IMG/VR virus record: IMGVR_UViG_3300010430_000264
Span: 1-35,639 of that record
DNA: 35,639 nt
From: a virus
Strand: one strand, 5' to 3'
The notes under the pieces are model-generated. The model searched no databases and was not told the origin of the DNA. It saw nothing but the letters and a program-made list of their open reading frames with translations. The position numbers and the translations under genes were made by a program. Of the stretch, positions 211 to 35,639 are shown piece after piece (within the stretch, counting starts at the first letter, position 1; each line of letters starts with the position of its first letter).

Positions 211-2223
211 CTAGGCGCCGTCGTAGTAGAGCCGCACGTCGCTGAACAGGGCCTCGCTCGTGCCGTCCTTCGCGAACCTGAACTGGGCCTGGTAGACCCA
301 CGGGCCCAGGGCGGTCAGGCGCTCGGCCCGGTTGTATCCGTGGGCCGGCAAGGGTACGGCAACGTAGAGGTCGCCGGTCGTGATGGTCTGTCCGGCGCCG
401 GTGTTGTTCGTGACGGTGACGGTGACCTCGTCCTCGCCGGTGATCTCACCGCTGATCGTGCAGCCCTTCAGATCCTCTTCGTAGCGGCAGATGATGGACT
501 GGCCCAGGCCGCTGCTCGCCCCGGTCACGGCGACCACTTGCGTGTCGCTGGCCCCGTTGGCCAGGGTGCCCATAGCCCAGGACGCTACCTTGCCCGTAAG
601 CTCGGCCAGCGCCTCCTTCGGCAGATAGAAGGGGAACTCGAACGTGCCGGGCTTCCCATCCTGCGGGTTGGACTGCACCCCGTCGAAGTGCGCGAACGGG
701 GTCTGGTTCTGGTAGACGTGGCCCTGCACTCCCGTCTGCAGGTTCAGAAAGTCATGCACGTCGAGCGCGTACCGCTCGCCCACGGCCATCATCTTCGCCA
801 AGCGCAGGGCGCCGTCCTCGTGGTTCAGGTCGAACACGAGCCGGTAGTGCCCGTGCGGAAGGCCACAGAACCCCATGTACGTTTCCAGGTACTGGTCGTT
901 GCTGACGCCGGTGCGCATCCCCCAGCCGCCGGTCTTGCCGCGCACCCCGGTCACGCCTGGGCCCAGGCTGTCGGCCACGGGGGTCGGGGTGGTGATGATG
1001 CCGTTCGCATCGTCGGCGGTGTGCCGAATGAAGATCGTGGAGCCCAGCGTCCGGGCGTTCTGGCCAGCGATCGCGCTGGTCATGCCGGCCGGATAGGGAA
1101 GGTCGCCCACGGCCATGTCGTTGATCTCGCGGTGCGGGATCTTGGTCTGCGGGTTCTGCAGAAGCTCAGTCCCCGGGGCATAGTCGCTGTAGAGGTGCTG
1201 TCCCAGCTCAGAGCCCAGGCACAGCTTGATGAAGCCGGCGTCCTCGAGCGCCCGCAGCGTCGCCAGGACGTGGCGCACGGAGAAGTGGTCAGGGTACTTC
1301 TTCGTGCCGCTGGTGGTCAGCGTCACGTTCTGGTCATTGGTCCTGCGCTCGCCGTGCATCGCGACCATGCCGGACAGGCCCATCGCGAGCATTCTCATGT
1401 AGCGCCAGGTCCAGGTGCGGTCCACGTCGGCGTCGAAGTCACCGTCAGCACTCCCCAGGCCGTTGTCCAGACCCAGGTGCCAGGGCTCGGCCCCGCTCAG
1501 CGGGTCCACGGCGGTCGGATCGGTGCGGTCGCCCCTGGTGACCACCACAGAGCCCAGGTCGATGGTGTACGCATCGCCGAAGGCGTGCGGGTCATTGCAG
1601 AGCCCAGGCCGCTGGCCGAAGCCGTTCTGAAACACCACGCCGTCGCTGTTCTCGGTGGCCCACATCAGGTTCAGCGCCTCGGTGGTCGCGTTGACGATCC
1701 CGTTGGCGCCCAGGGTGCGGTCGGCAGAAGCAGGCACCAGGCCGAAGGCGTACTGGATGCCGTGCTCGCGCAGGGCCTTGACGATCTGCTCGCGGTTGGC
1801 CTTGCACCAGTCGTTCACGCCCGCATCACCGGGCTGAACGTAGGTCGGGCACTCCACGTCCAGGTAGGCCATCATTTCCGTGGGATCGACCTCGTCGAGG
1901 ATCTCCTGGTAGGTCATGGCGTCGCCGTAGCCGGTCCAGTTGCTATTGGAGTGCTGCGCGGCCTCGATGGGGATGCCCAGGGCCTTGTGCTGCCGGACCG
2001 CGTCACGGACTTGCGTGCGCAGCATCCGGTTCGTGTACGCCACCTTCGACGGGTGCGCCTCGCCCGAAGTGCGCAGGCTGTTGAAGTTGAGCACCATCGT
2101 GCAGGGGATTCGGTAGTGCCTGAACCACTTCAGGTCTGACACCTGGTCGATGCTGCCGTCATCCAGGCGCACCGCGATGTGGGGACGGGGGTCGGTGACT
2201 ACGCCTCTGGTCGCGAGCGACAT
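211..2223 (-). CDS. Tail spike / receptor-binding protein with polysaccharide-deacetylase-like N-terminus
   Basis: 670 residues. The first ~110 residues resemble the NodB polysaccharide deacetylase fold: AVRLDDG with D21-D22 in the position of the catalytic/metal aspartates, a following 'YRIPCTMVLNF' strand, and an HSNSN motif at about residue 91 where the family has HSxxH. The second histidine is replaced (N or W), so activity is uncertain. The rest is beta-rich and unrecognised, ending in EALFSDVRLYYDGA, which recurs in the partial gene at the right end of the window. The start is the ATG at 2223, preceded by AGGAGG with good spacing. A capsule- or LPS-binding spike or depolymerase is the likely role; the fold assignment is inference from motifs. 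It lies away from the other tail genes, behind two helix-turn-helix genes. Confidence 0.6.
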   Translation of the reverse strand: MSLATRGVVTDPRPHIAVRLDDGSIDQVSDLKWFRHYRIPCTMVLNFNSLRTSGEAHPSKVAYTNRMLRTQVRDAVRQHKALGIPIEAAQHSNSNWTGYGDAMTYQEILDEVDPTEMMAYLDVECPTYVQPGDAGVNDWCKANREQIVKALREHGIQYAFGLVPASADRTLGANGIVNATTEALNLMWATENSDGVVFQNGFGQRPGLCNDPHAFGDAYTIDLGSVVVTRGDRTDPTAVDPLSGAEPWHLGLDNGLGSADGDFDADVDRTWTWRYMRMLAMGLSGMVAMHGERRTNDQNVTLTTSGTKKYPDHFSVRHVLATLRALEDAGFIKLCLGSELGQHLYSDYAPGTELLQNPQTKIPHREINDMAVGDLPYPAGMTSAIAGQNARTLGSTIFIRHTADDANGIITTPTPVADSLGPGVTGVRGKTGGWGMRTGVSNDQYLETYMGFCGLPHGHYRLVFDLNHEDGALRLAKMMAVGERYALDVHDFLNLQTGVQGHVYQNQTPFAHFDGVQSNPQDGKPGTFEFPFYLPKEALAELTGKVASWAMGTLANGASDTQVVAVTGASSGLGQSIICRYEEDLKGCTISGEITGEDEVTVTVTNNTGAGQTITTGDLYVAVPLPAHGYNRAERLTALGPWVYQAQFRFAKDGTSEALFSDVRLYYDGA

Positions 2224-2283
2224 TCGGATTTCCTCCTGGATGGACCTGCTCCTGATACGGCGGCAGGGTGCGCTCGCGGGCCG

Positions 2284-2610
2284 CTACTGTCGCGGGGATT
2301 CTTCCCCTATCGGCGCACGGGGCAGGACCACTGACAGGCCCCGGATGAACGAGCCGAACGGCAAGCCCAGGCGGGCCATCATGCGGTGATACACCTGGAG
2401 CGTGACCCCGTGGTCCTCGTTGCGAAGGCCCCGGTAGGTCTTGGCGGCGATGCCCAGGATGCGGGCGTGCTCTGTGAGGGATCTTCCGTAGTTCGATTCC
2501 ATGTGTCTGCCCAGGGCGCCGCCGTCGAGCGGGCCGTCCTGGGGCCCCAGTTCCTCAACAGTCACCAGCTCCAGGCGCAGGTCTACGCGAACAGTTCCAG
2601 GGCCAGCCAT
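2284..2610 (-). CDS. Helix-turn-helix (XRE-like) regulator
   Basis: 108 residues. Residues about 37-92 look like a Cro/CI-type helix-turn-helix: SLTEHARILGIAAKTYRGLRN is followed by a helix ending LGLPFGSFIRGL. The N-terminal ~35 residues are unassigned. ATG at 2610 has GGAGG four bases upstream. It is the last gene of the unit started by the promoter near 4.8 kb and follows another small helix-turn-helix gene, so the pair may form a regulatory switch. Its 3' end carries one copy of a 22-bp sequence that recurs at 30688-30709. Target unknown. Confidence 0.6.
   Translation of the reverse strand: MAGPGTVRVDLRLELVTVEELGPQDGPLDGGALGRHMESNYGRSLTEHARILGIAAKTYRGLRNEDHGVTLQVYHRMMARLGLPFGSFIRGLSVVLPRAPIGEESPRQ
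2289..2310. repeat. 22-bp direct repeat, copy A
   Basis: Identical over 22 bases to 30688-30709. It contains GGGGATTCTTCCCC, which can fold as a 5-bp stem with a four-base loop. This copy lies about 65 bases upstream of the spike start codon, within the 3' end of the helix-turn-helix gene. The other copy lies about 50 bases upstream of the 190-residue head gene. Both therefore precede a late structural gene, which suggests a shared regulatory or RNA-processing element. Confidence 0.75.
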
Positions 2611-2631
2611 CAGTCCTCCGGGGACGGGGAA

Positions 2632-2659
2632 GGGGGCCGGGCTATGCTGCCCGACCCCC
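2632..2659 (-). other. Intercistronic stem-loop
   Basis: GGGGG, a mispair, CGGGC, a six-base loop, GCCCG, a mispair and CCCCC form an 11-position stem in the gap between the two helix-turn-helix genes. On the transcribed strand the mispair is a U-G wobble. No U-tract follows, so an attenuator or mRNA stability element fits better than a full terminator. Confidence 0.5.
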
Positions 2660-2695
2660 GACTCTGCGACTGCTCGGCAAGCAAGCGCCAGCAGC

Positions 2696-2914
2696 CTAAC
2701 CTTCCAGCAGGATGTCGTCCACCTTGACCTTCAGCACCCTGGCCCAGCGCCGGGCCCGGTCACGCGACCAGCCTGGAGCTCTCATCGCGTTGGTCACGCT
2801 CGAGCGGCCGGCAAGGCCCAGGCGGCGGGCCAGTTCGGTCGGCCCGATGTCCAGGTCGATCATCGCCTGGTGGATGACCACCAGGTTGGGGCGCTTGCCC
2901 TTCGTGTTCGCCAT
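2696..2914 (-). CDS. Small helix-turn-helix (Cro/CI-like) DNA-binding protein
   Basis: 72 residues, essentially one helix-turn-helix domain: NLVVIHQAMIDLDIGPTELARRLGL is followed by the recognition helix region SSVTNAMRAP and a helix ending LKVKVDDILLEG, the typical end of XRE-type phage repressors and Cro proteins. The start ATG overlaps the TGA of the preceding gene (TGATG), so translation is coupled. It could bind the inverted repeat inside the two early promoters at 4.8 and 6.55 kb or the palindrome at 13.94 kb; that link is inference. Confidence 0.7.
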   Translation of the reverse strand: MANTKGKRPNLVVIHQAMIDLDIGPTELARRLGLAGRSSVTNAMRAPGWSRDRARRWARVLKVKVDDILLEG

Positions 2915-3561
2915 CAGTTTGCCTCCCGGATCACGGTGATGCGGCCCGGCCAGTCCCGCACGATGGTGCCGGGCAGGTGGATGACATACTGCACGCCCAC
3001 TCGCGGGCTCAGCGGGCGCTCCTCGCCTTCCCAGCAGTCCAGGTCACAGAGCACGGTCATGGTATTGGCCTCGCCGTGCAGGGCCAGTACGGTGCCCTCG
3101 ATCCAGCAGTCAGGGCGGCCGGTGCCGACGCGGTCGAAGTCCTGGCACCGTACCGTCATGCCCTCGCGGATCTCCGGCGGTGTGGCGGGGGTGTCGGCTC
3201 GCTGCCCTGCGCCGGCCTGGTAGGCCCGCTCCCGGGCTTCGGCCTGCTTCGCCCTGGCCTTGCCGGGCGTCTCCTGGGCGGGCACCAGGGCGGCGATGGT
3301 GCGCTCAGCGATGGACAGGCACTTGGAGCAGGTGACCTGCTCGCGGATGTCGCCCAGGTGCGTGCCGCCGATCCACGTCCCCATCCGGATCGCCCAGTCC
3401 GCGCGGTCGCCGGCCGTGCGGGTGATCGTGCCGCATCCACTGCGGCGCAGCTTGGTCCGCATCCACTGCTGGTCCAGCTTCCTGGGGACCATCCAGTGCG
3501 TGAACTTCCCGCCCACTGTCTTGTCCTTGCGTCCGCCGGTGCCGTTGCTCTTGCTCGTCAT
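2914..3561 (-). CDS. Hypothetical protein with a CxxC pair
   Basis: 215 residues, not recognised. It is basic at the N-terminus, has VTCSKCL near residue 77 (a half zinc-binding site) and a helical, Ala/Arg/Glu-rich middle. The C-terminal ~80 residues (REGMTVRCQDF...TVLALHGEANTMTVLCDLDCWEG) look like a small beta-barrel such as an SH3- or KOW-like module. The start at 3561 follows the CACAGGAGACGAGACC ribosome site shared by several genes here and the hairpin at 3587-3611. Middle gene of the 4758-2284 unit. Confidence 0.7.
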   Translation of the reverse strand: MTSKSNGTGGRKDKTVGGKFTHWMVPRKLDQQWMRTKLRRSGCGTITRTAGDRADWAIRMGTWIGGTHLGDIREQVTCSKCLSIAERTIAALVPAQETPGKARAKQAEARERAYQAGAGQRADTPATPPEIREGMTVRCQDFDRVGTGRPDCWIEGTVLALHGEANTMTVLCDLDCWEGEERPLSPRVGVQYVIHLPGTIVRDWPGRITVIREAN

Positions 3562-3586
3562 GGTCTCGTCTCCTGTGCAGGTGGTC

Positions 3587-3611
3587 GGCCCGGGGGCGAA
3601 TCCCCCGGGCC
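3587..3611 (-). promoter_or_regulatory. Repeated intergenic hairpin + leader, copy 1
   Basis: GGCCCGGGGG and CCCCCGGGCC form a perfect 10-bp stem with a five-base loop. On the minus strand it is followed by a conserved ~25-base leader containing CACAGGAGACGAGACC and then the ATG at 3561. Nearly identical hairpin-leader units precede the genes starting at 4136 and 5391. Likely a processing, stability or translation-control element. Confidence 0.7.
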
Positions 3612-3623
3612 ATCGTGGGGCGG

Positions 3624-4136
3624 TCAGGCGCTGACGTGGGCCAGCTGGTGCAGCAGCCCGTCAACGTCGTGCGAGTCGCGGACGTGGTTGTCCGCTTCCG
3701 TGGTCGCCATGTACTGGCGGGACCGTCCATCCCAGCCGGCGAACAGGCCCTTGATGCTGGTGCCCTCAACCGGGCGCATCGCGTCGTCGCCAGCCTCGCG
3801 GCTCTTCGCGATGGCCGACTCCACCGGGGCCCGCAGGCGCTCGCGGCGGGTGTCCAGGGCGTCCATCGAGTAGTGCGCGTTGATGAACAGGTTACCGCCG
3901 CTCAGGATGTCGTGCGTGATCTCACACCGGCGCACCTGCTGCTGCCCTTCCGCGATCTCGCGGATCGGTGCCAGGTCCAGGTCGGGATCCTTCACGGTCA
4001 CGTTGATGCTGCTCCCCATCGAGTAGCGGTGGATGCGCACGCTCACCTGGCGCGGCTTGATGTCGAAGCGGGCCCGCAGCTGGTCGCGGATCGTCTCGGC
4101 GGCAACGGCGGTGCGGTCATTGATCTTGCTGGTCAT
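3624..4136 (-). CDS. Hypothetical protein, possible LPD29-like domain
   Basis: 170 residues. The first ~100 residues (IRDQLRARF, then VSVRIHRYSMGSSINVTVKDP and IREIAEGQQ) resemble the small alpha/beta 'large polyvalent protein associated' domain LPD29, which is common in phages and mobile elements and has no established biochemical role. The C-terminal part contains SIKGLFAGWDGRSRQYMATTEADNHVRD and is unassigned. It is preceded by the conserved hairpin-leader module and a strong ribosome site. The domain match is from memory and moderate. Confidence 0.65.
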   Translation of the reverse strand: MTSKINDRTAVAAETIRDQLRARFDIKPRQVSVRIHRYSMGSSINVTVKDPDLDLAPIREIAEGQQQVRRCEITHDILSGGNLFINAHYSMDALDTRRERLRAPVESAIAKSREAGDDAMRPVEGTSIKGLFAGWDGRSRQYMATTEADNHVRDSHDVDGLLHQLAHVSA

Positions 4137-4161
4137 GGTCTCGTCTCCTGTGCAGGTGGTC

Positions 4162-4186
4162 GGCCCGGGAGCGAATCCCCCGGGCC
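4162..4186 (-). promoter_or_regulatory. Repeated intergenic hairpin + leader, copy 2
   Basis: Same element as at 3587-3611 with a single A-C mispair in the 10-bp stem; the loop CGAAT is identical. It precedes the gene starting at 4136 and follows the stop of the 185-residue gene by about 15 bases. Confidence 0.7.
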
Positions 4187-4200
4187 TGTCGGTCGTCGGC

Positions 4201-4758
4201 CTAGAGTTCGGTCAGCAGGTCGCGCTGGCTCCGGAAGATGTTGATGTACTCGATCATGTCGCTGGCGTGCTTCCCGTAGATCCGGGCGTCCTGCTGGGTC
4301 ACGCCGTAGTCCGCATCCAGGACGCTCTCGCGCAACTCGTCGGCGTGGTCGGCCATGATCGTGAGCAGCTTCTCAAGCTGGGCCAGCTGGTGCGCCGCCT
4401 GGTCACGGATCCCGTCTTCGGCGGTGGGCTTCGGGTCGGTGGCCAGCTGGCCACGGGCGGCCAGGCGCAGCTGAGTGTAGTCCACGCTATCGTAGTCGTT
4501 CTGCGGCATGGAGTAGAAGGTGGTCGGCGTGCCGTTGATCTCGGTGTGCTCGACGCGGACCAGGCCATCCTCGCGCAGCCGGGCGATGCAGCCGCCCAGG
4601 CTGGTAGGGCCGCCGGCCGCGCCGTACAGGTCGGTGTCGCCCACGTCGGTGAAGTGCGGCTCGTAGAGTCCGTCAGCGATGGCGGCGAGCACGGCGGCGC
4701 TCTTGGCGGGCAGGTTCTTGGCGGCTTCGTTCAGGCTGGTCAGGTTCGCGGTGGTCAT
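4201..4758 (-). CDS. Hypothetical early protein with winged-helix-like N-terminus
   Basis: 185 residues. The start is the ATG at 4758, because the repeated CAGGAGACGAGACA ribosome site lies directly upstream; an in-frame GTG at 4821 has no such site and would lie in the promoter leader. Residues about 1-80 (LPAKSAAVLAAIADGLYEP, then TSLGGCIARLREDGLVRVEH and a short beta hairpin) have the layout of a winged helix that tests for a rule such as 'L..LxxxGLV'. The remainder is helical. First gene of the unit driven by the promoter at 4813-4840. Role unknown; an early regulator is possible. Confidence 0.7.
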   Translation of the reverse strand: MTTANLTSLNEAAKNLPAKSAAVLAAIADGLYEPHFTDVGDTDLYGAAGGPTSLGGCIARLREDGLVRVEHTEINGTPTTFYSMPQNDYDSVDYTQLRLAARGQLATDPKPTAEDGIRDQAAHQLAQLEKLLTIMADHADELRESVLDADYGVTQQDARIYGKHASDMIEYINIFRSQRDLLTEL

Positions 4759-4812
4759 TGTCTCGTCTCCTGTGCTGGTGTCGGCCTGGGGCCCTTCCCC
4801 TGGCGCCCCGTA

Positions 4813-4840
4813 AACGTACACTAATATGGTACGCGCACAA
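4813..4840 (-). promoter_or_regulatory. Early promoter P1 with embedded inverted repeat
   Basis: On the minus strand TTGTGC (4835-4840) and TACGTT (4813-4818) are separated by 16 bases and fit -35 and -10 boxes loosely. Between and overlapping them, CGTAC (4815-4819) and GTACG (4829-4833) form an inverted repeat spaced by nine bases, which is operator-like. It sits just after a terminator and before the gene starting at 4758, and is almost identical to 6534-6561. The promoter call rests on position, duplication and boxes, not on a known consensus for this host. Confidence 0.55.
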
Positions 4841-4852
4841 CCCTCCGGGACG

Positions 4853-4983: not shown

Positions 4984-5391
4984 CTACCCCCGGAAGCTCG
5001 CGACGGTGCACAGCTGGCAAGGCTGGGGGTCGTGGTCCAGGTGCGCGGTGTCCCAGTGAATCGCCCCGTCGAGCCCGCTGACCCAGCAGCCCAGGACGTC
5101 AGGGTCGGACGGCAGCGGGACGGCGTGGATGTGCACGTCCAGGTGGTCCAGGCAAGCGGCGACCGAAGGCCGCTTCTGGCCGCTGACGCTGGGGCTCCAG
5201 TTCGCCCTCATGTTCCGGATCGCCTCCTGGCGGGTCTTGCCACGTCCCCAGCAGAGCGGGCCCACGGCGATGAACTCGTGGTCGATGATGACCTGGCGCA
5301 GCTGGTCCTGGATCACGGCGGCCGGTGTGGCCTCCTGCTGCTCGAGCTGGTGCGCCCTGGCGCTCATGCTCATGCGGTCTTGGTCTGCCAT
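4984..5391 (-). CDS. Hypothetical early protein
   Basis: 135 residues, not recognised. It starts with a helical, Gln/Glu-rich segment, then contains a region (VIIDHEFIAVGPLCWGRGKTRQEAIRNMRANW) that could be an alpha/beta fold of the HicB-like or dsRNA-binding-like type. It ends CQLCTVASF, with a CxxC. The ATG at 5391 follows TCCTGTGCAGG-type leader and the conserved hairpin. Last gene of its unit, closed by the terminator at 4853-4896. Confidence 0.65.
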   Translation of the reverse strand: MADQDRMSMSARAHQLEQQEATPAAVIQDQLRQVIIDHEFIAVGPLCWGRGKTRQEAIRNMRANWSPSVSGQKRPSVAACLDHLDVHIHAVPLPSDPDVLGCWVSGLDGAIHWDTAHLDHDPQPCQLCTVASFRG

Positions 5392-5417
5392 TGTCTTGTC
5401 CTCCTGTGCAGGCGGTC

Positions 5418-5442
5418 GGCCCGGGAGCGAATCCCCCGGGCC
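5418..5442 (-). promoter_or_regulatory. Repeated intergenic hairpin + leader, copy 3
   Basis: Same stem-loop as at 4162-4186 including the A-C mispair and CGAAT loop. It lies between the stop at 5455 and the start at 5391. The three copies show that the element belongs to the gap between genes and not to a particular gene family. Confidence 0.7.
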
Positions 5443-5454
5443 CTGATCGGCTGT

Positions 5455-6255
5455 CTAGTCCCGGCCGCTGGCGGGAACCTCGTCATAGGCGCACCGCTCG
5501 ATGGCGACGCGGAGCGCGGCATAGAGAGCGCAGTGCACGGTCACGCGGCTGGTCCCCTGGACGTGCCCCTCGACCGCGCGGTCACTGAGCGAGCGGTGCA
5601 GGCGGATCTCGTCCACCAGCTGGTCGCGAGTCTGAAGGCTGCGGCTGAACTTCATCCGGCGCGTGAGGTGCGACTTCAGCAGGGCCGGGCTCCAGTTGTC
5701 GGCCTGGGCAGAGTTCTCCAGGCGGCCGGCGATGCGGCAGCACTCGCGGACCAGGGCGTGGCCGGTGAGCGGACCCAGGTCGCTGACATCCACAACCGTG
5801 TCCGTGCGAGCGGTGCGGCGCGAAAGCTCCAGCACCAGGACGGCCTTCCGATCCAGGGCGTCGGCCCGGCGCTCTTCGGCGGCGGCCAGATAGTAGTGGT
5901 CGGTGGTCTGGTCGATGATCCAGTTCAGGTGCTCAAGCTCGTCGCTGATGTCGCCCGCGTTCATGCTCGCGGGGTCGGGGGTGTCGCCATCGGCCAGGCG
6001 CTTGATGTCGATCTGCACCGGCGCGTCCTGGAGGTCGTGGATCGCGTACACCTCGTTCAGAACATCCCGGCCGCGCTCGGTGCAGTCGGTCGAGAAGCTG
6101 GAGTAGCGAGCGCCCAGGCCGTCGCCGGTCGCGCAGACCGTGCCCAGCACAGCCTGGGCCACGTCGCCGGCAGCCTTGAAGCGGTAACCGTTGGTCGCGA
6201 TGGTGACGGTGATCGTGTTGCTCGGGTCGTTGCTGTTGATGATGGCGGTGGTCAT
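5455..6255 (-). CDS. Hypothetical early protein
   Basis: 266 residues, not recognised. The N-terminus (TAIINSNDPSNTITVTIATNGYRF) looks beta-stranded; the remainder is mostly helical, with HLNWIIDQTTDHYYLAAAEERRADALDRKAVLVLEL as a probable long helix. It has two cysteines together (VRECCR) but no metal site I can assign. ATG at 6255 has CAGGAGACGAAACA upstream. Second gene of the P2 unit. Confidence 0.7.
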   Translation of the reverse strand: MTTAIINSNDPSNTITVTIATNGYRFKAAGDVAQAVLGTVCATGDGLGARYSSFSTDCTERGRDVLNEVYAIHDLQDAPVQIDIKRLADGDTPDPASMNAGDISDELEHLNWIIDQTTDHYYLAAAEERRADALDRKAVLVLELSRRTARTDTVVDVSDLGPLTGHALVRECCRIAGRLENSAQADNWSPALLKSHLTRRMKFSRSLQTRDQLVDEIRLHRSLSDRAVEGHVQGTSRVTVHCALYAALRVAIERCAYDEVPASGRD

Positions 6256-6277
6256 TGTTTCGTCTCCTGTGCTGGGT

Positions 6278-6481: not shown

Positions 6482-6533
6482 CGTCTCTCTCCCGTGCTGG
6501 TGTTGCCTGGGGCCCTTCCCCTGGCGCCCCCCT

Positions 6534-6561
6534 AACGTACACTAATACGGTACGCGCACAA
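6534..6561 (-). promoter_or_regulatory. Early promoter P2 with embedded inverted repeat
   Basis: Near-identical to P1: TTGTGC (6556-6561), 16-base spacer, TACGTT (6534-6539), with CGTAC (6536-6540) and GTACG (6550-6554) as an inverted repeat. The only change inside the element is one base in the centre of the repeat. It follows the terminator of the IbrB-like gene and precedes the gene starting at 6481. Confidence 0.55.
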
Positions 6562-6571
6562 CCCCCGAACA

Positions 6572-6715: not shown

Positions 6716-7222
6716 TCAGTCGCCGTCAGGAACCCATCCCTTGCCGAACTCGCCGGCGGTGTTCGTGTCGGTGCTGGGGCGATGCGCGTGCAGCAGTCGG
6801 TCGATCTCTTCCTGTTCCATGCCCAGGCGCTTGCCCAGTTCTTCGTGGTCCAGGGTGTCGGCCAACTCGATCACCAGTGAAGCCATCCGCATGATCGCGT
6901 GCTGACCCCGGGCGCGGTTGTGTCGAACGGTAGACATGATGCGTTCATCGCGGTCCTTGCTCACGAATACCACAGGGACACAGCCGTCGCCCAGGGCCCT
7001 CACTTCATCATCATTGCTCGCCAGTGTCCAGCGATGGAAGCCGTCCACGATCACGTTGTCCATCGTCGCGACGATTGGCTGGGTCCACCCGTCCTCGAGC
7101 AAAGACAGGCGCAGCAGATCCAGCTCCGGTTTGAATACCTGGTTCGGGTTGTAATCGTTCGCGGTCAGCAGGGCGGGATCGACCCAGTGCACGGCGGCGA
7201 GTGGTTGGTCGGTGCGCGGCAT
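6716..7222 (-). CDS. IbrB-like ParB/Srx-fold protein
   Basis: 168 residues with one ParB/sulfiredoxin-type domain: ANDYNPNQV (22-29), DGWTQPIV (44-51), DGFHRW (60-65, in place of the ParB GERR box) and HNRARGQH (101-108), followed by a helical segment and an acidic end. These motifs are those of IbrB, the partner of IbrA in pathogenic E. coli, where the pair influences expression of immunoglobulin-binding (Eib) surface proteins. There is no ParB helix-turn-helix, so it should not bind parS itself. Its ATG overlaps the stop of the IbrA-like gene (TGATG), giving coupled synthesis and a likely one-to-one complex. The biochemical activity of IbrB is not established. Confidence 0.8.
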   Translation of the reverse strand: MPRTDQPLAAVHWVDPALLTANDYNPNQVFKPELDLLRLSLLEDGWTQPIVATMDNVIVDGFHRWTLASNDDEVRALGDGCVPVVFVSKDRDERIMSTVRHNRARGQHAIMRMASLVIELADTLDHEELGKRLGMEQEEIDRLLHAHRPSTDTNTAGEFGKGWVPDGD

Positions 7223-8352
7223 CAGTACCGTCCTTTGTCCTGGGCATCGCGATTGTAGGTTGGCGTCCGGCGGCCCTTCATGTCCCCACGGAGGCAGAGC
7301 TTGTAGAGGTACTTCCAGGTCACGCCGGTGGCGCCCGGCTTCTCCATCGGGATCTTCTCGCCGCTCTTGCTGTAGTGGTTTCCGATCTCGGTCTTGATGC
7401 GGTCCCGCAGTCCGGCCTGTTGATCCTCTGGCCAGAGCGCGATGGCGTCCTGGATCTGCTGGTGCGGATCGCGGTCGGGATCCCAGCCGGCAAGGTTGAG
7501 GCCGAACCCGTATAGCTCGCTGGTCGAGTACCTGGCGGCGGTGGCCGCGCCGGGCACCCGCTGGACCATGCGATCCCAGAGGTCAGGCCAGCAGACAGCG
7601 TACTGCCACAGACCTCGCAGCGGCTCCTCGCCATACGGCGGACAGACCCGCTGGTCTGCCACGTCGATCCCGGCGGCCCGCATCACGTCATAAGCGCGAT
7701 TGTAGTCCCAGCCGAACAGCTGGGGCGCGGTCCAGATGTCCGCGTCGGTCCAGTCGTAGATCGGCTTCACCAGGTTGACGTGCCGGGCGTGAGCGTCCCG
7801 GCCGATGAAGTTGTCTTCGATCTTGCCGGCGACCGCTCGGTATCGGTTCAGGGACTCGCTGGCCCTGAGCCCCAGCATCACGCCCACGGTGCCCAGGTCA
7901 CGGGGCAGGGCGTAGCCGTTGCACTCCGGGGCAGGCTGGCGAGCGAAGCCCGCACCGGGCAGCTGAGTCAGCGCCTCGGGCGGCAGCGGCCTGCACCACT
8001 TGGCCTCGTCCTCCGGGGCCCAGGGGTGCCACCAGGGCGACGTGCGGGAGCAGGCGTTCCGATGCTTGATCGGGACGCAATACCAGTCCAGGCGCACGCG
8101 GGGATCCTGGGCGACCCGGGTCATGTACTCGATGGTCTCGGGGTGGATCGCCTCTTCATCCCAGAAGAAGGCGTGCACCGGCAGGGCGTCCCGCAGCTCG
8201 GCGACCTCCAGCACCAGGTTCAGCAGGGCGGTACTGTCCTTGCCCCCGCTGAAGGCCACGGCGATGTGGTCGTGCAGATCGTAGGCCCGATCTATGCGCT
8301 CGCGGGCCAGCTCCAGGACGTCGGCGTCGATCACTTTCTTACGGTAGACCAC
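7222..8352 (-). CDS. IbrA-like PAPS-reductase/ATP-pyrophosphatase family protein
   Basis: 376 residues from a GTG at 8352, chosen because AGGGGG lies five bases upstream and it overlaps the preceding gene only slightly. It has the N-type ATP-pyrophosphatase loop SGGKDS (35-40), then FFWDEEAIHP. The C-terminal part has YDWTDADIWTAPQLFGWDYNRAYDVM, DQRVCPPYGEEPLRGL and PDLWDRMVQRVPGA, the layout of the IbrA/DUF3440 group. The family activates a substrate by adenylation; true PAPS reductases reduce PAPS, but the substrate of IbrA-type proteins is unknown. Several cysteines lie after the core, so a metal or sulfur site is possible. It pairs with the downstream IbrB-like gene. Confidence 0.8.
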   Translation of the reverse strand: MVYRKKVIDADVLELARERIDRAYDLHDHIAVAFSGGKDSTALLNLVLEVAELRDALPVHAFFWDEEAIHPETIEYMTRVAQDPRVRLDWYCVPIKHRNACSRTSPWWHPWAPEDEAKWCRPLPPEALTQLPGAGFARQPAPECNGYALPRDLGTVGVMLGLRASESLNRYRAVAGKIEDNFIGRDAHARHVNLVKPIYDWTDADIWTAPQLFGWDYNRAYDVMRAAGIDVADQRVCPPYGEEPLRGLWQYAVCWPDLWDRMVQRVPGAATAARYSTSELYGFGLNLAGWDPDRDPHQQIQDAIALWPEDQQAGLRDRIKTEIGNHYSKSGEKIPMEKPGATGVTWKYLYKLCLRGDMKGRRTPTYNRDAQDKGRY

Positions 8353-9127
8353 GGCGCCCCCTGGCCTCGAGCGCCCACTTGTGCGTCTCCAGGATTTCGG
8401 GTTCCCGCTCGCGGATCTGCTGCACGCTCGTCCTGGCCCACGGCCTGGGGCCGGTGTTGAAGCCTGCATGGTAGCCGTAGCTCGGGTGCCAGGGCAGACC
8501 CTCGCGGGCGCAGAGCGCGATGACCGCCTCGTGCGGCCAGTCGTGCAGCGGGTTCAGGATCATCATGCGGTCTCGCCTGGTGGACTTCGGCCCGGCCGGT
8601 GCGTTGTTACCGTCGATGGTGCGCCGGCCGAAGATCATCAGCTTGCACCCGCTGTTCAGGTAGGCCCGCTCCTGCGGCTTCCAGTTCAGCCAAGTATTCC
8701 AGAGCTGATTGGAGTAACGCCGCACGTCTGCAGGGCAGTCGTCGTCCTCCGGGAACAGCATCCCCGGGCGCTCGGCCAGGTACACCGCATCGATCAGGCT
8801 GCGCTCCACGAACACATCACGGGGGCGCACCTGGTCATACCAGCGCAGGGACTCCGCGAACTCCAGGGAGTCGCTGGTCATGCACTGGACTCCGGCGGTG
8901 ACGTCGGCCTGCTGCGCGATCCAGTAGGCCGCGATGCTGTCCTTGCCGCCGGACCAGGCCACCAGCACGTCGGCCGGTGTGATCTTCAGGAAGTAGATCG
9001 CAGCGCGAACCCGGTGCACCGCCTGGATGATGTGTTGATCCAGGACGTGCGACGGCAGAAGGGCGGCCCCGGTTTCCAGGGCCTCCCTCCAATCGTCATC
9101 GGTGACGCTGTGCTTCGTCCCCAGCAA
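8339..9127 (-). CDS. Second PAPS-reductase/ATP-pyrophosphatase-like protein
   Basis: 262 residues. SGGKDS at 59-64 in the context VLVAWSGGKDSIAAYWIAQQ marks an adenine-nucleotide alpha-hydrolase of the PAPS reductase superfamily. FGRRTIDGNNAP and LNPLHDWPHEAVIALC fit the later part of the fold (a WxxxDV-like segment). It is shorter than, and clearly different from, the IbrA-like neighbour, so the operon carries two non-identical enzymes of the superfamily. The start is a TTG at 9127, two bases after the cupin stop, with AGGGGG upstream. Its stop overlaps the next gene by 14 bases. Substrate unknown. Confidence 0.75.
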   Translation of the reverse strand: MLGTKHSVTDDDWREALETGAALLPSHVLDQHIIQAVHRVRAAIYFLKITPADVLVAWSGGKDSIAAYWIAQQADVTAGVQCMTSDSLEFAESLRWYDQVRPRDVFVERSLIDAVYLAERPGMLFPEDDDCPADVRRYSNQLWNTWLNWKPQERAYLNSGCKLMIFGRRTIDGNNAPAGPKSTRRDRMMILNPLHDWPHEAVIALCAREGLPWHPSYGYHAGFNTGPRPWARTSVQQIREREPEILETHKWALEARGRRGLP

Positions 9128-9128
9128 A

Positions 9129-9860
9129 TCAGGCCCCCTGATTCATCAGGTAGGTGCCGTTGAACATGGGGTGATTGAACTCAGCCGCGCCGCTGCTGCT
9201 GAAGACGTGGAACGGGATGCAGACCAGCGGCTGGTTCTGCCCGATGGTGTCGAAGTGGTGCGGGCACATCGGCTCCAGGATCAGCGTCGTTCCAGGCACC
9301 AGCCGCACGGCGACCTGGTTCCCTTCCATGCCCACGATGCAGGTGCCGTGCCCCTCCAGGATGTGGACCACGCGCACGGTGCTGTGGATGTGATGCGCCT
9401 GCTCCTCGCTGCCCGCAGGAATCCGCAGGTACTGGAGCGTCGGGTCGCCCAGGCGCACCGGCGGGAACAGCTGCTGAGTTGAACAGCCGTTGACGTAGGG
9501 CAGGGTCGTGCCCTGGCCTGCGATCTGCACCGCTCGCGATGGCGGGCGGTAGCCTTCCATCAGGACGCCGAACCGCTGGGTCCGCCGCTTGCCCGGACCA
9601 CTGTGCCAGTTGGCCCACTCGCCGGCCTCGTCCAGGACGCAGAGCGACTGCCAGGTGGAGAGCTCCAGGGTGTGATTCCCGTGATAGGCCGTGAACTGGT
9701 AGAGGTTGTCGGGGTCGGCGTCGTAGATCGCCTTCTCGCCAGGCGGGAAGAACTTGGCGCCGAAGTTGTCCAGGATGCGCTGGGCCGGTTCAACAAAGCC
9801 CAGGGCGGGGTCGAGTTCCACGCGGCCCTCGGCCGGCGCAGGAGTGTGAAGCAGGGTCAT
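9129..9860 (-). CDS. Cupin-fold protein in the ParB/PAPS cassette
   Basis: 243 residues. The C-terminal half is a cupin: AHHIHSTVRVVHILEGHG (residues 155-172, with His157/159 and Glu169 as likely metal ligands) and a second motif with PHHFDT (200-205). The N-terminal ~110 residues (KAIYDADPDNLYQFTAYHGNH) are unassigned and may be another beta domain. Cupins include metal-dependent oxygenases, isomerases and ligand-binding regulators; which applies is unknown. The ATG overlaps the TGA of the ParB-like gene (ATGA), and the PAPS-like gene follows two bases after its stop, so it is an integral part of the cassette. Confidence 0.7.
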   Translation of the reverse strand: MTLLHTPAPAEGRVELDPALGFVEPAQRILDNFGAKFFPPGEKAIYDADPDNLYQFTAYHGNHTLELSTWQSLCVLDEAGEWANWHSGPGKRRTQRFGVLMEGYRPPSRAVQIAGQGTTLPYVNGCSTQQLFPPVRLGDPTLQYLRIPAGSEEQAHHIHSTVRVVHILEGHGTCIVGMEGNQVAVRLVPGTTLILEPMCPHHFDTIGQNQPLVCIPFHVFSSSGAAEFNHPMFNGTYLMNQGA

Positions 9861-10549
9861 GCCTGGTTCCTTTCCATGAACTGTTCGCAGAGCAGGGCGA
9901 CGGCGGTGCCTTGAGAGTCAGCGCCATCGACCATCTCGATTTTGCGGGCCAGCTGCACCGCGTTCAGCACCGCCTGGCGCTCGTCGCGGCTCATCGTCAG
10001 CACGAGGGTGACCAGCTCCGATGTCGCACCCGGCCCGCCGCCGGTGCCCTGGTCCCCGTCCTCGCCGCCTGAGCCCGCCCCGGAGCCGTTGCCGTCTCCC
10101 AGGAAGGCCAAGTCCCCGGCGGCCGTGACAAGGCCGCCCAGAGCTTCTTCCGTGAAGCCCAGTGCCGTGATGTCGATGTCCGGCAGCTGGGCCAGCTCGC
10201 CGACCTCGATGGCCAGTAGCTCGTGATCCCAGCTGCCCCGCCTGGCCAGCTCGTTGTCGGCCAGCAGGTAGGCCCGCCGCTCGTTCGCGCTCAGGTGTTC
10301 CAGCACGATGACCGGAACCTTCTCCATTTCCAGCTGCTGCGCGGCCATCAGCCGGCCGTGGCCCGCGATTATGGAGCCGTCTTCGCCCACTAGGATCGGG
10401 TTATTGAATCCCCACTTCTCGATGCTGCGGGCGATGTCTGCCACCTGGTCGTCAGGGTGCTGCATCGGGTTGCGGTCGTAGGGTTGGAGCTTGTCCAGCG
10501 TCCACATCTGGATCTTCCGCGCCAGGCGGCGTTTCACGTCAGCGCCCAC
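9857..10549 (-). CDS. ParB-like (ParB/Srx domain) protein, no methylase domain
   Basis: 230 residues. Residues about 14-135 form a ParB N-terminal domain: LQPYDRNPMQHPDDQV, RSIEKWGFNNPILV, GSIIAGHGRLMAAQQL (GHGR at 63-66 in the place of the ParB CTP/catalytic box) and DNELA. It resembles the ParB-like domain often fused to phage adenine methylases, but here it is followed by a glycine/acid-rich linker (about 152-180) and a short helical end, so the methylase is absent. The GTG at 10549 follows GGGG and overlaps the previous gene by 11 bases. Likely nucleotide- or DNA-binding; first gene of the cupin-IbrAB block. Confidence 0.78.
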   Translation of the reverse strand: MGADVKRRLARKIQMWTLDKLQPYDRNPMQHPDDQVADIARSIEKWGFNNPILVGEDGSIIAGHGRLMAAQQLEMEKVPVIVLEHLSANERRAYLLADNELARRGSWDHELLAIEVGELAQLPDIDITALGFTEEALGGLVTAAGDLAFLGDGNGSGAGSGGEDGDQGTGGGPGATSELVTLVLTMSRDERQAVLNAVQLARKIEMVDGADSQGTAVALLCEQFMERNQA

Positions 10550-14420: not shown

Positions 14421-14723
14421 CTATTCGCCCGCCTGGGGGCCCGCGTCCTTGATCTTGGCCAGGGCGCCAGGCACGTCGTCCGCCTGGTCGATGATGCCGC
14501 CCTCGCCGAAGATTTCATCCCAGGACAGGCGGCCGTCCGACACCGCATCGGCAGCGGTGTAGAACACTTCCTGGATCTCGCCGGCCGCGTCGCCTGCGGC
14601 CCGCAGCTTCGGCTCGCCCTGCTCGGTCAGCAGGTCGCTCAGCTTCTCACCCGTCAGGGCGTTGATGAGGCTCTGGCCCGTCTCCAGGGCGATGGCCCCG
14701 GTCGTGGAGTTGAATCCGCTCAC
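14421..14723 (-). CDS. Hypothetical protein of the lysis region
   Basis: 100 residues, acidic and helical, starting MSGFNSTTGAIALETGQSLINALTG. It contains DAVSDGRLSWDEIFGEGG, which resembles an EF-hand-like calcium loop, but a second hand is not visible. The GTG start overlaps the endolysin stop (GTGA), so it is coupled to it. Function unknown. Confidence 0.6.
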   Translation of the reverse strand: MSGFNSTTGAIALETGQSLINALTGEKLSDLLTEQGEPKLRAAGDAAGEIQEVFYTAADAVSDGRLSWDEIFGEGGIIDQADDVPGALAKIKDAGPQAGE

Positions 14724-15268
14724 TGGTCTGCCTTTCGCAGAAGGTATTCACGCGCCACCTGCCGGAGCTCTTCCATCGGAAATTGCCGGCCGGGGCAGGT
14801 CTTGTGCGGTGCGATCGCACTGTGCGGGATCAGCTTGTCCGGAGCAAGATTGAACTGCTCCAGCACCGGGCCGATCCAGCCGCGCACCGCCGCCCGGATC
14901 ATCTCCGGGGTGGGGCGCCGCTCGTCGTAGTCGCCCACGAACAGGAACCCCAGGGTGCGATAGTTCTGGGGGGCGGCATGAGCGCCGCTGCGCGAGACGG
15001 GGCGGCCCTGGAGCACGACGTACTTGCCGAAGGCCCGCTCGATCCCGCCGTGATACGCAATGGCATCCCAGGGCGGGGTCAGCCTGGACCCGTGGCCCTG
15101 CTCGAGCAACCGCCGGGCCTCGGCCGGGGTGATGATCCTGGAGCCCCGGCGCCAGGAGGTATGGAATCGCTCGATGGCAACCCAGTCCAGGGACTTGCCA
15201 TCCCGCACCGCGCTGTGATGGATGACCACAGCCGCGACCCGCTTGAGTTCTCGCCCTGGTAGTTTCAC
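14720..15268 (-). CDS. Endolysin: N-acetylmuramoyl-L-alanine amidase (Amidase_2/PGRP fold)
   Basis: 182 residues, normal length for a single-domain T7-lysozyme-like amidase that cuts the bond between muramic acid and the peptide stem. VVIHHSA (14-20) gives the first zinc histidine; YHGGIE, GFLFVGDYD and HSAIAPHKTCPG (149-160, with H149, K156 and C158) give the other zinc ligands and the catalytic Lys. There is no signal peptide or binding domain, so it depends on a holin. The GTG at 15268 has AGGAGG nine bases upstream; the start codon lies inside a parS-like palindrome. Confidence 0.92.
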   Translation of the reverse strand: MKLPGRELKRVAAVVIHHSAVRDGKSLDWVAIERFHTSWRRGSRIITPAEARRLLEQGHGSRLTPPWDAIAYHGGIERAFGKYVVLQGRPVSRSGAHAAPQNYRTLGFLFVGDYDERRPTPEMIRAAVRGWIGPVLEQFNLAPDKLIPHSAIAPHKTCPGRQFPMEELRQVAREYLLRKADQ

Positions 15269-15275
15269 GTGAAAC
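15262..15275. promoter_or_regulatory. parS-like palindrome on the endolysin start codon
   Basis: GTTTCACGTGAAAC is identical to the central 14 bases of the 16-bp parS site to which chromosomal ParB binds in most bacteria; the outer base on each side differs from the usual T...A. It includes the GTG start codon. I noticed no second copy in the window. The phage's own ParB-like proteins lack the ParB helix-turn-helix that reads parS, so a host ParB would be the partner. The site could also act in the mRNA as a hairpin between the ribosome site and the start. Confidence 0.6.
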
Positions 15276-15280
15276 GCCTC

Positions 15281-15514
15281 CTAGCTTGCGTTCAGGATCA
15301 GGCCGCCGATGACGGTGACCACGATGGACACCAGGCCGCCGTAGATCAGGCCCTGGGTCCGCCCAGCCGCTTCCGCGTCCCGCCGGTCGGCCTCGCGGTG
15401 CGCTTCAAACTCGGCCCGCATGGTCGCCATGTCAGCGGCGGCGCCTTCGGCGTGCTCGCGCTGGCGCTTGTCCAGTTCGCGTATTGCGACCCGGAACTCC
15501 TCCAGCGTGCGCAT
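15281..15514 (-). CDS. Coiled-coil / C-terminal membrane-anchor protein (holin or spanin-like candidate)
   Basis: 77 residues from the ATG at 15514 (AGGGGTGGGA upstream); a GTG at 15544 would add ten residues and overlap the PAS gene. Residues 1-50 are a charged coiled coil (EEFRVAIRELDKRQREHAEG...EAHREADRRDAEAAG) and 53-76 a transmembrane helix (LIYGGLVSIVVTVIGGLILNAS). This coiled-coil plus tail-anchor layout is common for small phage lysis proteins of the haemolysin XhlA type. It precedes the endolysin by 12 bases. Confidence 0.7.
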   Translation of the reverse strand: MRTLEEFRVAIRELDKRQREHAEGAAADMATMRAEFEAHREADRRDAEAAGRTQGLIYGGLVSIVVTVIGGLILNAS

Positions 15515-15536
15515 GAGAAGATCCCACCCCTGCCCA

Positions 15537-15965
15537 CTATCCACACCCGGACCCGCTCTCTACCGGGAAGAAAACGCCGTAGCTGGTAGAGGTAGCTTCG
15601 TCGTTTCGCCAGCTGGCGAGAAGCTCGACCCGGTGCCCGCTCTTGGTGTTGTATCCGATGGGGTGCATCTGGCCACCCTGGCCGCCGGCCTGGCGCCACT
15701 TCTCGGCCTGCTCATCGTGGGGTGGCGGCACGGCCACGAGGTCGGTCCAGTGTTTCCCCACCACGTCCTGCGGCTTCCAGCCCAGGATGGCGGTGAAGGC
15801 TGGATTCACGAAGGCCACGAACCCGTCCCGGTAGATCATGCAGGGCGCGTTCAGCAGTTCGAAGAAGTGCCGGAAGTGGCGGTCCTGTTCCAGCTCCTGC
15901 CCCAGCTGGCGCAGGGCGGTGAGGTTGGGTAGCGGCAACGGGTCGGGGATCGGGCGTCCTGTCAT
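15537..15965 (-). CDS. Free-standing PAS-domain protein
   Basis: 142 residues, almost all one PAS fold: residues 33-135, with FFELLNAPCMIYRDGFVAFVNPAF (53-57 is the VNPAF strand-turn), ILGWKPQDVVGKHWTDLV and a beta sheet ending VELLASWR...TSYGVFFPVE. PAS domains bind small ligands, haem or flavin and normally sit on kinases, cyclases or regulators; here no output domain is attached. The ATG overlaps the stop of the tail hub gene (TAATG) and lysis genes follow, so it is made with the late proteins. It may be a virion-associated sensor or a competitor of host PAS signalling. Ligand and role are unknown. Confidence 0.78.
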   Translation of the reverse strand: MTGRPIPDPLPLPNLTALRQLGQELEQDRHFRHFFELLNAPCMIYRDGFVAFVNPAFTAILGWKPQDVVGKHWTDLVAVPPPHDEQAEKWRQAGGQGGQMHPIGYNTKSGHRVELLASWRNDEATSTSYGVFFPVESGSGCG

Positions 15966-35318: not shown

Positions 35319-35639
35319 TCAGCCTGCCCCCGGGGGGGCAACGGCTCGGCATCGCCGCGTCGTCCCTGTCAGGCCGCCCAGGGGGGCCGGGATGACAGCG
35401 ATGCCCAGGAGTGTCCGGGCATCGTGGGGCTCGGCTGTCATCGGGGTCGGAGAGCGCCAGAGGCCCAGGGCGGGGGGCACTCGTGACCATCCGGTGCGGG
35501 GGGTGGGGGGTTGGACGGCCCAGGCGAAGCCTCGCTGAGCCGCGCGCGGCCTGCGACCGCCCGCCCAAATCCCAAGGTAGACGTCGTCGTAGAAGATCCG
35601 AACGTCGCTGAACAGGGCCTCGATCGTGCTGTTCGTGGC
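35319..35639 (-). CDS. Partial tail-spike paralogue, C-terminal end, stop codon lost
   Basis: The gene enters from the right edge. Its in-frame end EALFSDVRIFYDD matches EALFSDVRLYYDGA, the C-terminus of the spike at 211-2223. Where that spike has TAG, this copy has TAC, so the frame runs on for about 80 low-quality codons to a TGA at 35319. The flanking bases after the stop are also alike in both copies (about 146-210 and 35510-35576). Either the run-on is real, or a stop was lost by mutation or sequencing error. Start and length are unknown. Confidence 0.55.
   Translation of the reverse strand, partial: ATNSTIEALFSDVRIFYDDVYLGIWAGGRRPRAAQRGFAWAVQPPTPRTGWSRVPPALGLWRSPTPMTAEPHDARTLLGIAVIPAPLGGLTGTTRRCRAVAPPGAG
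35391..35442. repeat. Nested inverted repeats upstream of the packaging genes
   Basis: GATGACAGC (35391-35399) is inverse to GCTGTCATC (35434-35442); inside it CGATGCCC (35399-35406) is inverse to GGGCATCG (35417-35424). The structure lies in the run-on part of the spike paralogue and about 1.4 kb upstream of the small terminase gene. It could be a terminator-like stem without a U-tract or a protein-binding site such as a packaging site. Confidence 0.55.

Follow-up and report, generated by a model that had tools for sequence, protein, structure and literature searches.

Is the 14-base palindrome on the start codon of a phage endolysin gene a chromosomal-type parS site, read by the ParB protein of the host, or does the sequence match parS there by accident? 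The palindrome lies in an IMG/VR virus record of 35,639 bases and 67.5% GC, which was analysed over its whole length and is called the window below. The minus-strand genes of the window include those for a terminase (gpA type), portal, capsid and tape-measure protein.

Position and rarity of the palindrome

At 15262-15275 the window carries GTTTCACGTGAAAC, the exact 14-base palindromic core of chromosomal parS. A preliminary description of this DNA had reported the same core, and its letters and coordinates proved exact. In a scan of the whole window this was the sole match within 3 mismatches. The features around the site are as follows.

15262..15275, no strand: predicted host ParB loading site, parS-type palindrome GTTTCACGTGAAAC (sequence; enrichment in viral contigs against two matched palindromes)
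15266..15268, minus strand: GTG start codon of the endolysin gene, within the palindrome (ORF list and sequence; the gene caller picked the same start)
15277..15282, minus strand: Shine-Dalgarno-like AGGAGG, overlapping the stop codon of the preceding gene (sequence)
14720..15268, minus strand: endolysin, N-acetylmuramoyl-L-alanine amidase (Amidase_2), 182 aa (Pfam E 3e-11; PHROG lysis families)
15281..15544, minus strand: small protein with a hydrophobic C-terminal stretch, directly before the endolysin (ORF)

The minus-strand context reads AGGAGG-C-GTTTCAC-GTG-AAA-CTA-CCA. Seven bases of the palindrome are intergenic and seven open the endolysin gene; the context joins the stop codon of the small gene at 15281-15544 to the endolysin GTG. 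Its first arm forms most of the spacer between AGGAGG and GTG, and its second arm is the start codon plus four bases. That the palindrome sits on the endolysin start, as had been described, was borne out by the start at 15268-15266, the reading frame running to 14720 and the Amidase_2 product. The small protein had no match in Pfam or PHROG; it could conceivably be a holin or spanin. Between the tail gene and the lysis genes, at 15537-15965 on the minus strand, there is a 142-aa PAS-domain protein, which is unusual in a phage.

Perfect 14-base palindromes are ordinary in the window, with a count of six, including one that lies inside a 16-base palindrome. The unusual feature of this one is its identity to parS, not its palindromy as such. 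The expected chance count of the 14-mer per window ranged from 2.4e-5 (base composition) to 4.8e-5 (third-order Markov). The earlier estimate of ~1 in 10,000 was right in calling the match rare, but the true figure is somewhat rarer.

This low expectation is the first argument against an accidental match, in which GTG-AAA-C would be ordinary coding sequence of the endolysin, completed to a palindrome by the seven preceding bases. Such an accident is favoured by the presence of a single site, and by the choice of the window by a reader seeking anything odd. Relatives gave no evidence of conservation at this locus: the 14-mer was found in 0 of the 25 terminase relatives examined (80 were fetched), many of which were fragments and all of which, bar one short identical contig, had 28-40% identity. 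Among all terminase relatives there was this one identical contig of 7.6 kb, and the others were distant, at about 27-40% identity. The contig (IMGVR_UViG_3300005589_000327) ends short of the endolysin; since its terminase is identical to that of the window, the window phage or a close relative has been assembled a second time. For the endolysin, tblastn gave no relatives in named phages, none were confirmed in viral contigs, and genome contigs gave one weak partial match of 38 residues. A search with the neighbouring tail-region gene gave no relatives.

Several repeats were seen elsewhere in the window. A gene-junction module recurs at 3545-3611, 4120-4186, 4742-4808, 5376-5442 and 6232-6275; it consists of a GC-rich inverted repeat followed by AGGAG and ATG on the minus strand, and precedes a row of small genes without assigned function. 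A 60-base repeat (4784-4843 and 6505-6564, 93% identical) has a near-palindromic CGTACACTAATATGGTACG core and is possibly an early-region promoter or operator. Near both record ends lies a 147-base imperfect direct repeat (127-273 and 35493-35639, 81%).

The 14-mer in viral DNA

The parS 14-mer was commoner in viral records than two matched palindromes. It occurred in at least 120 stretches of IMG/VR, whereas the whole collection held 64 stretches with the control CTTTGACGTCAAAG, which equals parS in base composition and almost so in dinucleotides, and 26 with the control GTTTGACGTCAAAC. The number of parS loci in the scanned parts was estimated in two ways. The pattern GGAGN{1,4}GTTTCACGTGAAAC, present in at least 119 stretches of IMG/VR, gave about 4,760 loci (95% CI 1,629-23,082), and a pattern with non-canonical ends gave 1,800 (95% CI 914-4,169); these estimates rest on 3 and 8, respectively, of the 120 first-scan loci. 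A combination of Shine-Dalgarno sequence and parS was considered as a special signal and discarded: 3 of 120 is about what chance gives for four spacings and two strands, so the enrichment belongs to parS itself.

The viral sites also differed from the controls in their setting. They were intergenic in 92 of 148 cases (controls 14/90), as judged by a home-made gene caller that sometimes takes the antisense strand. Several sites per locus were found in 17 of 120 viral loci and in 0 of 90 controls. Both outer bases were canonical, giving the 16-mer TGTTTCACGTGAAACA, in 94/148 viral and 11/90 control sites. In these three comparisons the viral loci were the first returned by the scan, in unknown order, and both they and the control sites were counted without dereplication; the non-canonical-ends and terminase-linked sets described below were dereplicated. 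Host contamination was rejected as the whole explanation, because few of the records had an HTH_ParB domain and cultured phages have conserved sites.

TGTTTCACGTGAAACA is the chromosomal parS consensus as used in PMC10197239. The window 16-mer is AGTTTCACGTGAAACG, with outer bases A...G in place of the T...A that is usual, though not required, in the chromosomal site. These ends put the window site in a minority class and therefore count against a genuine parS: both outer bases were non-canonical in only 8/148 first-scan viral sites, as against 23/64 and 18/26 control sites, a distribution that favours chance. The class itself is nevertheless enriched in viral DNA, with at least 120 parS stretches against 23 and 18 control records. 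At a GC content of 0.64 or more there were at least 28 parS loci against 1 and 2 controls, which speaks against chance; the chance share among these GC-rich loci would be roughly 5%, and with numbers this small it could reach about 25%. After dereplication, 59/128 sites of the class were intergenic, compared with 3/41 control sites. With the points on both sides weighed, we regard an accidental match as fairly unlikely, without its being negligible.

Genes for the large terminase subunit (TerL) were over-represented just downstream of viral parS (10/82, against 3/228 random genes; p 1.5e-4, with related phages uncorrected, as in all our Fisher tests). In ten loci (L014, L033, L044, L046, L070, L074, L099, L109, L116 and L465) parS lies 25-143 bases upstream of related TerL genes, at varying distance. 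As a conserved arrangement, the TerL-linked parS was rejected, because it was absent (within 2 mismatches, near the gene) from the regions of 5/5 named relatives. The relative Arthrobacter phage Mendel, which has a phi29-type polymerase, likewise had no site within 2 mismatches.

parS on start codons and the lysis genes

Most viral copies of the 14-mer lie away from start codons, and only 2 of the 148 unbiased first-scan sites overlapped a called start. The arrangement seen in the window nevertheless occurs in other phages and is conserved in one cultured genus. Among 55 dereplicated listed cases, a set biased to sites preceded by GGAG, the called gene start fell exactly at the GTG inside parS in 18, the window included.

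The conserved case is the RuvC-like gene of cultured Arthrobacter phages (Korravirus), for which tblastn found relatives in 138 phage records. Ten of these were fetched, namely eight Korravirus phages and two distant relatives. The exact 14-mer was present at the GTG start of the gene in all eight Korravirus phages (L491-L497, L500). In their alignment (n = 8) the site was in register and invariant in 14/14 columns, compared with 32/147 upstream columns and 19/49 downstream third codon positions. Streptomyces phage Bogota and Micrococcus phage Olihed, at about 40% identity, had no site within 2 mismatches in the stretch fetched (2/2). A second parS, intergenic, stands ahead of purA in all three whole Korravirus genomes (L491-L493).

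The Korravirus site resembles that of the window in the 14-mer and in its register on the GTG start (GTTTCAC-GTG-AAA-C). It differs in the gene served (RuvC-like), the phage group and the presence of the second, intergenic site. The base before the Korravirus start-codon sites is not T in 5/8 phages and the base after is T, not A, in 8/8, so that non-canonical ends are compatible with long conservation.

A start codon can accommodate parS because GTGAAAC can be read as the start followed by a lysine codon, and the first arm will do as a spacer between Shine-Dalgarno sequence and start. With such dual-use arms, parS can cost a compact genome almost no additional DNA.

Does the site then act on the gene that begins in it? 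The preliminary description had suggested that ParB spreading from the site might repress late lysis transcription. ParB seated on the start codon and spreading from it would block transcription through the endolysin gene, or its onset, until ParB was displaced or depleted late in infection. The position on the endolysin start speaks for such a silencing switch, and parallels exist. The closest is L459, in which an unrelated gene for an M15-type endolysin starts inside parS. In L085 an amidase-type endolysin gene has two parS sites directly ahead of it, and phi29, B103 and Goe1 have one site each inside gene 15 or the peptidoglycan hydrolase gene. In addition, PMC7022226 describes repression by P. 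aeruginosa ParB through a parS placed upstream of a promoter.

Lysis genes are, however, not a theme of viral parS. Endolysins showed no clear enrichment just downstream of viral parS, with 2/82 cases against 1/228 random genes (Fisher p 0.17, window excluded), a comparison made with a lysis panel of six cell-wall hydrolases and one holin, of which both counted endolysins are themselves members. It is TerL genes that were over-represented instead, and where Korravirus and L289 have parS on a start codon, the genes are those of a resolvase, a DNA polymerase and a packaging ATPase. Moreover, according to PMC7022226, B. subtilis genes next to parS were unaltered on loss of Spo0J. As a specific claim, lysis repression thus found no support, and we consider a dedicated silencing switch quite improbable.

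L289 and L085 are small phages with terminal-protein-type DNA polymerase genes and three parS sites each. Those of L289 (1781, 4618 and 6456) lie on two start codons, of the genes for the polymerase and for the packaging ATPase, and within a lysozyme-like gene, which we read as GH25. Those of L085 (9084, 9113 and 13976) are the two just upstream of the endolysin gene and one just upstream of the gene before the polymerase.

The palindrome might also act as RNA, in which a hairpin would conceal the GTG start and so adjust translation of the endolysin. A 5-pair hairpin does fold, with GTG in and beside its loop. Its folding was no better than that of shuffled sequences (z 0.39 for 66 nt, -0.40 for 36 nt), Korravirus keeps the exact letters with no compensatory change seen, and start codons are not where most viral copies of the 14-mer lie. 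These results make a hairpin function extremely unlikely.

Host ParB as the predicted reader

Two ParB-like proteins are encoded in the window:

9857..10549, minus strand: ParB_N-domain protein (Pfam ParB_N E 1.2e-7)
6716..7222, minus strand: second ParB-like protein, 168 aa, adjoining a PAPS-reductase-like gene (PHROG 2159 'ParB-like partition protein' E 3.8e-57)

For the latter, Pfam gave nothing at 0.001. Searched in six frames, the window record showed neither HTH_ParB nor the ParA-type domain AAA_31. The observation, made from the start, that the phage's own ParB-like proteins lack the helix-turn-helix that reads parS was upheld, as they matched only ParB_N or ParB-like profiles. Since no HTH_ParB was found, the protein at 9857..10549 is not expected to read parS. 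Both proteins belong to a minus-strand cluster (6716-10549) of two ParB-fold, two PAPS-reductase-like and one cupin protein, which is possibly concerned with DNA modification or signalling rather than partition.

The window therefore does not hold a self-contained phage parABS system, with its own ParA and an HTH-bearing ParB; in lacking a parS-reading ParB of the phage, it agrees with what a phage-borne host parS would require. Because neither HTH_ParB nor a ParA-type ATPase is encoded, the natural reader would be host ParB. The host would then need a ParB with specificity for this site. The same lack is common among parS-bearing viral records: HTH_ParB exceeded the cut-off in 1 of 100 records and was found in 3 of 100 at E 0.001 (50 of the 120 first-scan loci and 50 hand-chosen from the remaining loci of three scans).

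The same palindrome could be read by another regulator of phage or host, as an operator, or serve as a decoy that draws ParB off the chromosome to disturb division. By sequence alone a single site is indistinguishable from an operator, and a decoy needs only binding. The extended consensus of the viral copies, on the other hand, equals the chromosomal parS 16-mer and so points to ParB, and a decoy with one site per genome would be weak, short of phage replication to high copy number. Operator and decoy together are very unlikely in our judgement.

Use of host ParB by a phage is already known from phi29, whose chromosome is entrapped in spores by host Spo0J, according to PMC9437464, which cites Meijer et al. 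2005. The phi29 record has four one-mismatch sites (TGTTTCACGTGGAACA) and one two-mismatch site; B103 and Goe1 have one exact and one one-mismatch site each. For Goe1 and B103 the comparison with permuted palindromes gave 1 of 60; as the permutations include the true motif, that one may be the motif. The phi29 family thus offers a virulent phage with parS-type sites and with DNA reported as trapped in spores by host ParB. Its sites are several, have canonical 16-base ends and lie mostly in coding sequence, whereas the window has one, non-canonical, on a start codon, in a phage of another kind, with gpA-type terminase and tape measure protein.

Two other systems bear comparison. With chromosomal ParABS the window shares the identity to the 14-base core of the 16-mer consensus; it has no parA or HTH-bearing parB beside the site and no chromosomal origin nearby. 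In the phage-plasmids P1 and N15 and the parABS mycobacteriophages, ParA, ParB and the site are all the phage's own. Use of ParB and parS by phage DNA, predicted for the window, is common to both, but the window encodes neither its own ParA nor an HTH-bearing ParB.

We think it probable that the window site is a true host-type parS and, like those of phi29, serves to load host ParB onto the phage genome. The enrichment of the 14-mer in viral contigs and its conservation at a start codon in cultured phages strengthen the initial view of it as a chromosomal-type parS core. That the palindrome is a working chromosomal-type parS, carried for host ParB and linking the phage genome to host segregation or positioning, is on balance the likeliest account of it, with a somewhat better than even chance of being right. 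Against it count the two non-canonical outer bases, the single site, the want of any relative in which this site is conserved (no relative of the endolysin, and the 14-mer in 0/25 terminase relatives examined) and the absence of the TerL-linked sites from the regions of 5/5 named relatives.

From the sequence we infer ParB binding at the window site, and with it all of its consequences. Host ParB would nucleate on the palindrome, close as a CTP clamp and slide out over the phage DNA; spreading of ParB as CTP clamps is a known mechanism (PMC12704722). ParA, SMC or both could then attach the phage genome to the segregation and positioning machinery of the host. By such attachment, known for phi29 with Spo0J, phage DNA might for instance be kept or positioned in a cell whose lysis is not immediate. 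While ParB is bound, endolysin expression might be somewhat damped as a side effect. The window record, which may be a fragment, gave no match to PF00589 (tyrosine integrase, the one integrase type covered), so integration is less plausible than a carrier state, deferred lysis or simple positioning of the replicating DNA.

A wider reading is that many unrelated phages without ParB have independently acquired host parS, in some cases placing it on start codons, and that ParB occupancy both ties their DNA to segregation and gates the gene beneath, here the endolysin. In this full form we consider it decidedly unlikely; were the gating true, lysis would be sensitive to the state of host segregation.

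In the literature searched we found no report that phages lacking ParB widely carry chromosomal-type parS, a point on which Livny et al. 2007 and Meijer et al. 2005 may say more. Nor did we find a report of parS built into start codons, or a printed description of the Korravirus site. Korravirus lends itself well to laboratory study of how phages use host ParB, and if the account given here is true, it provides cultured test cases from which the site can be deleted. With parS on a start codon, a compact genome would hold a centromere at almost no cost. Capture of the host segregation protein would then be a common phage trait, readable from a 14-base word and not confined to phi29 and spores. 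Carrier states and the positioning of phage DNA would become directly accessible to study, and host ParB would be a factor in the infection of many bacteria.
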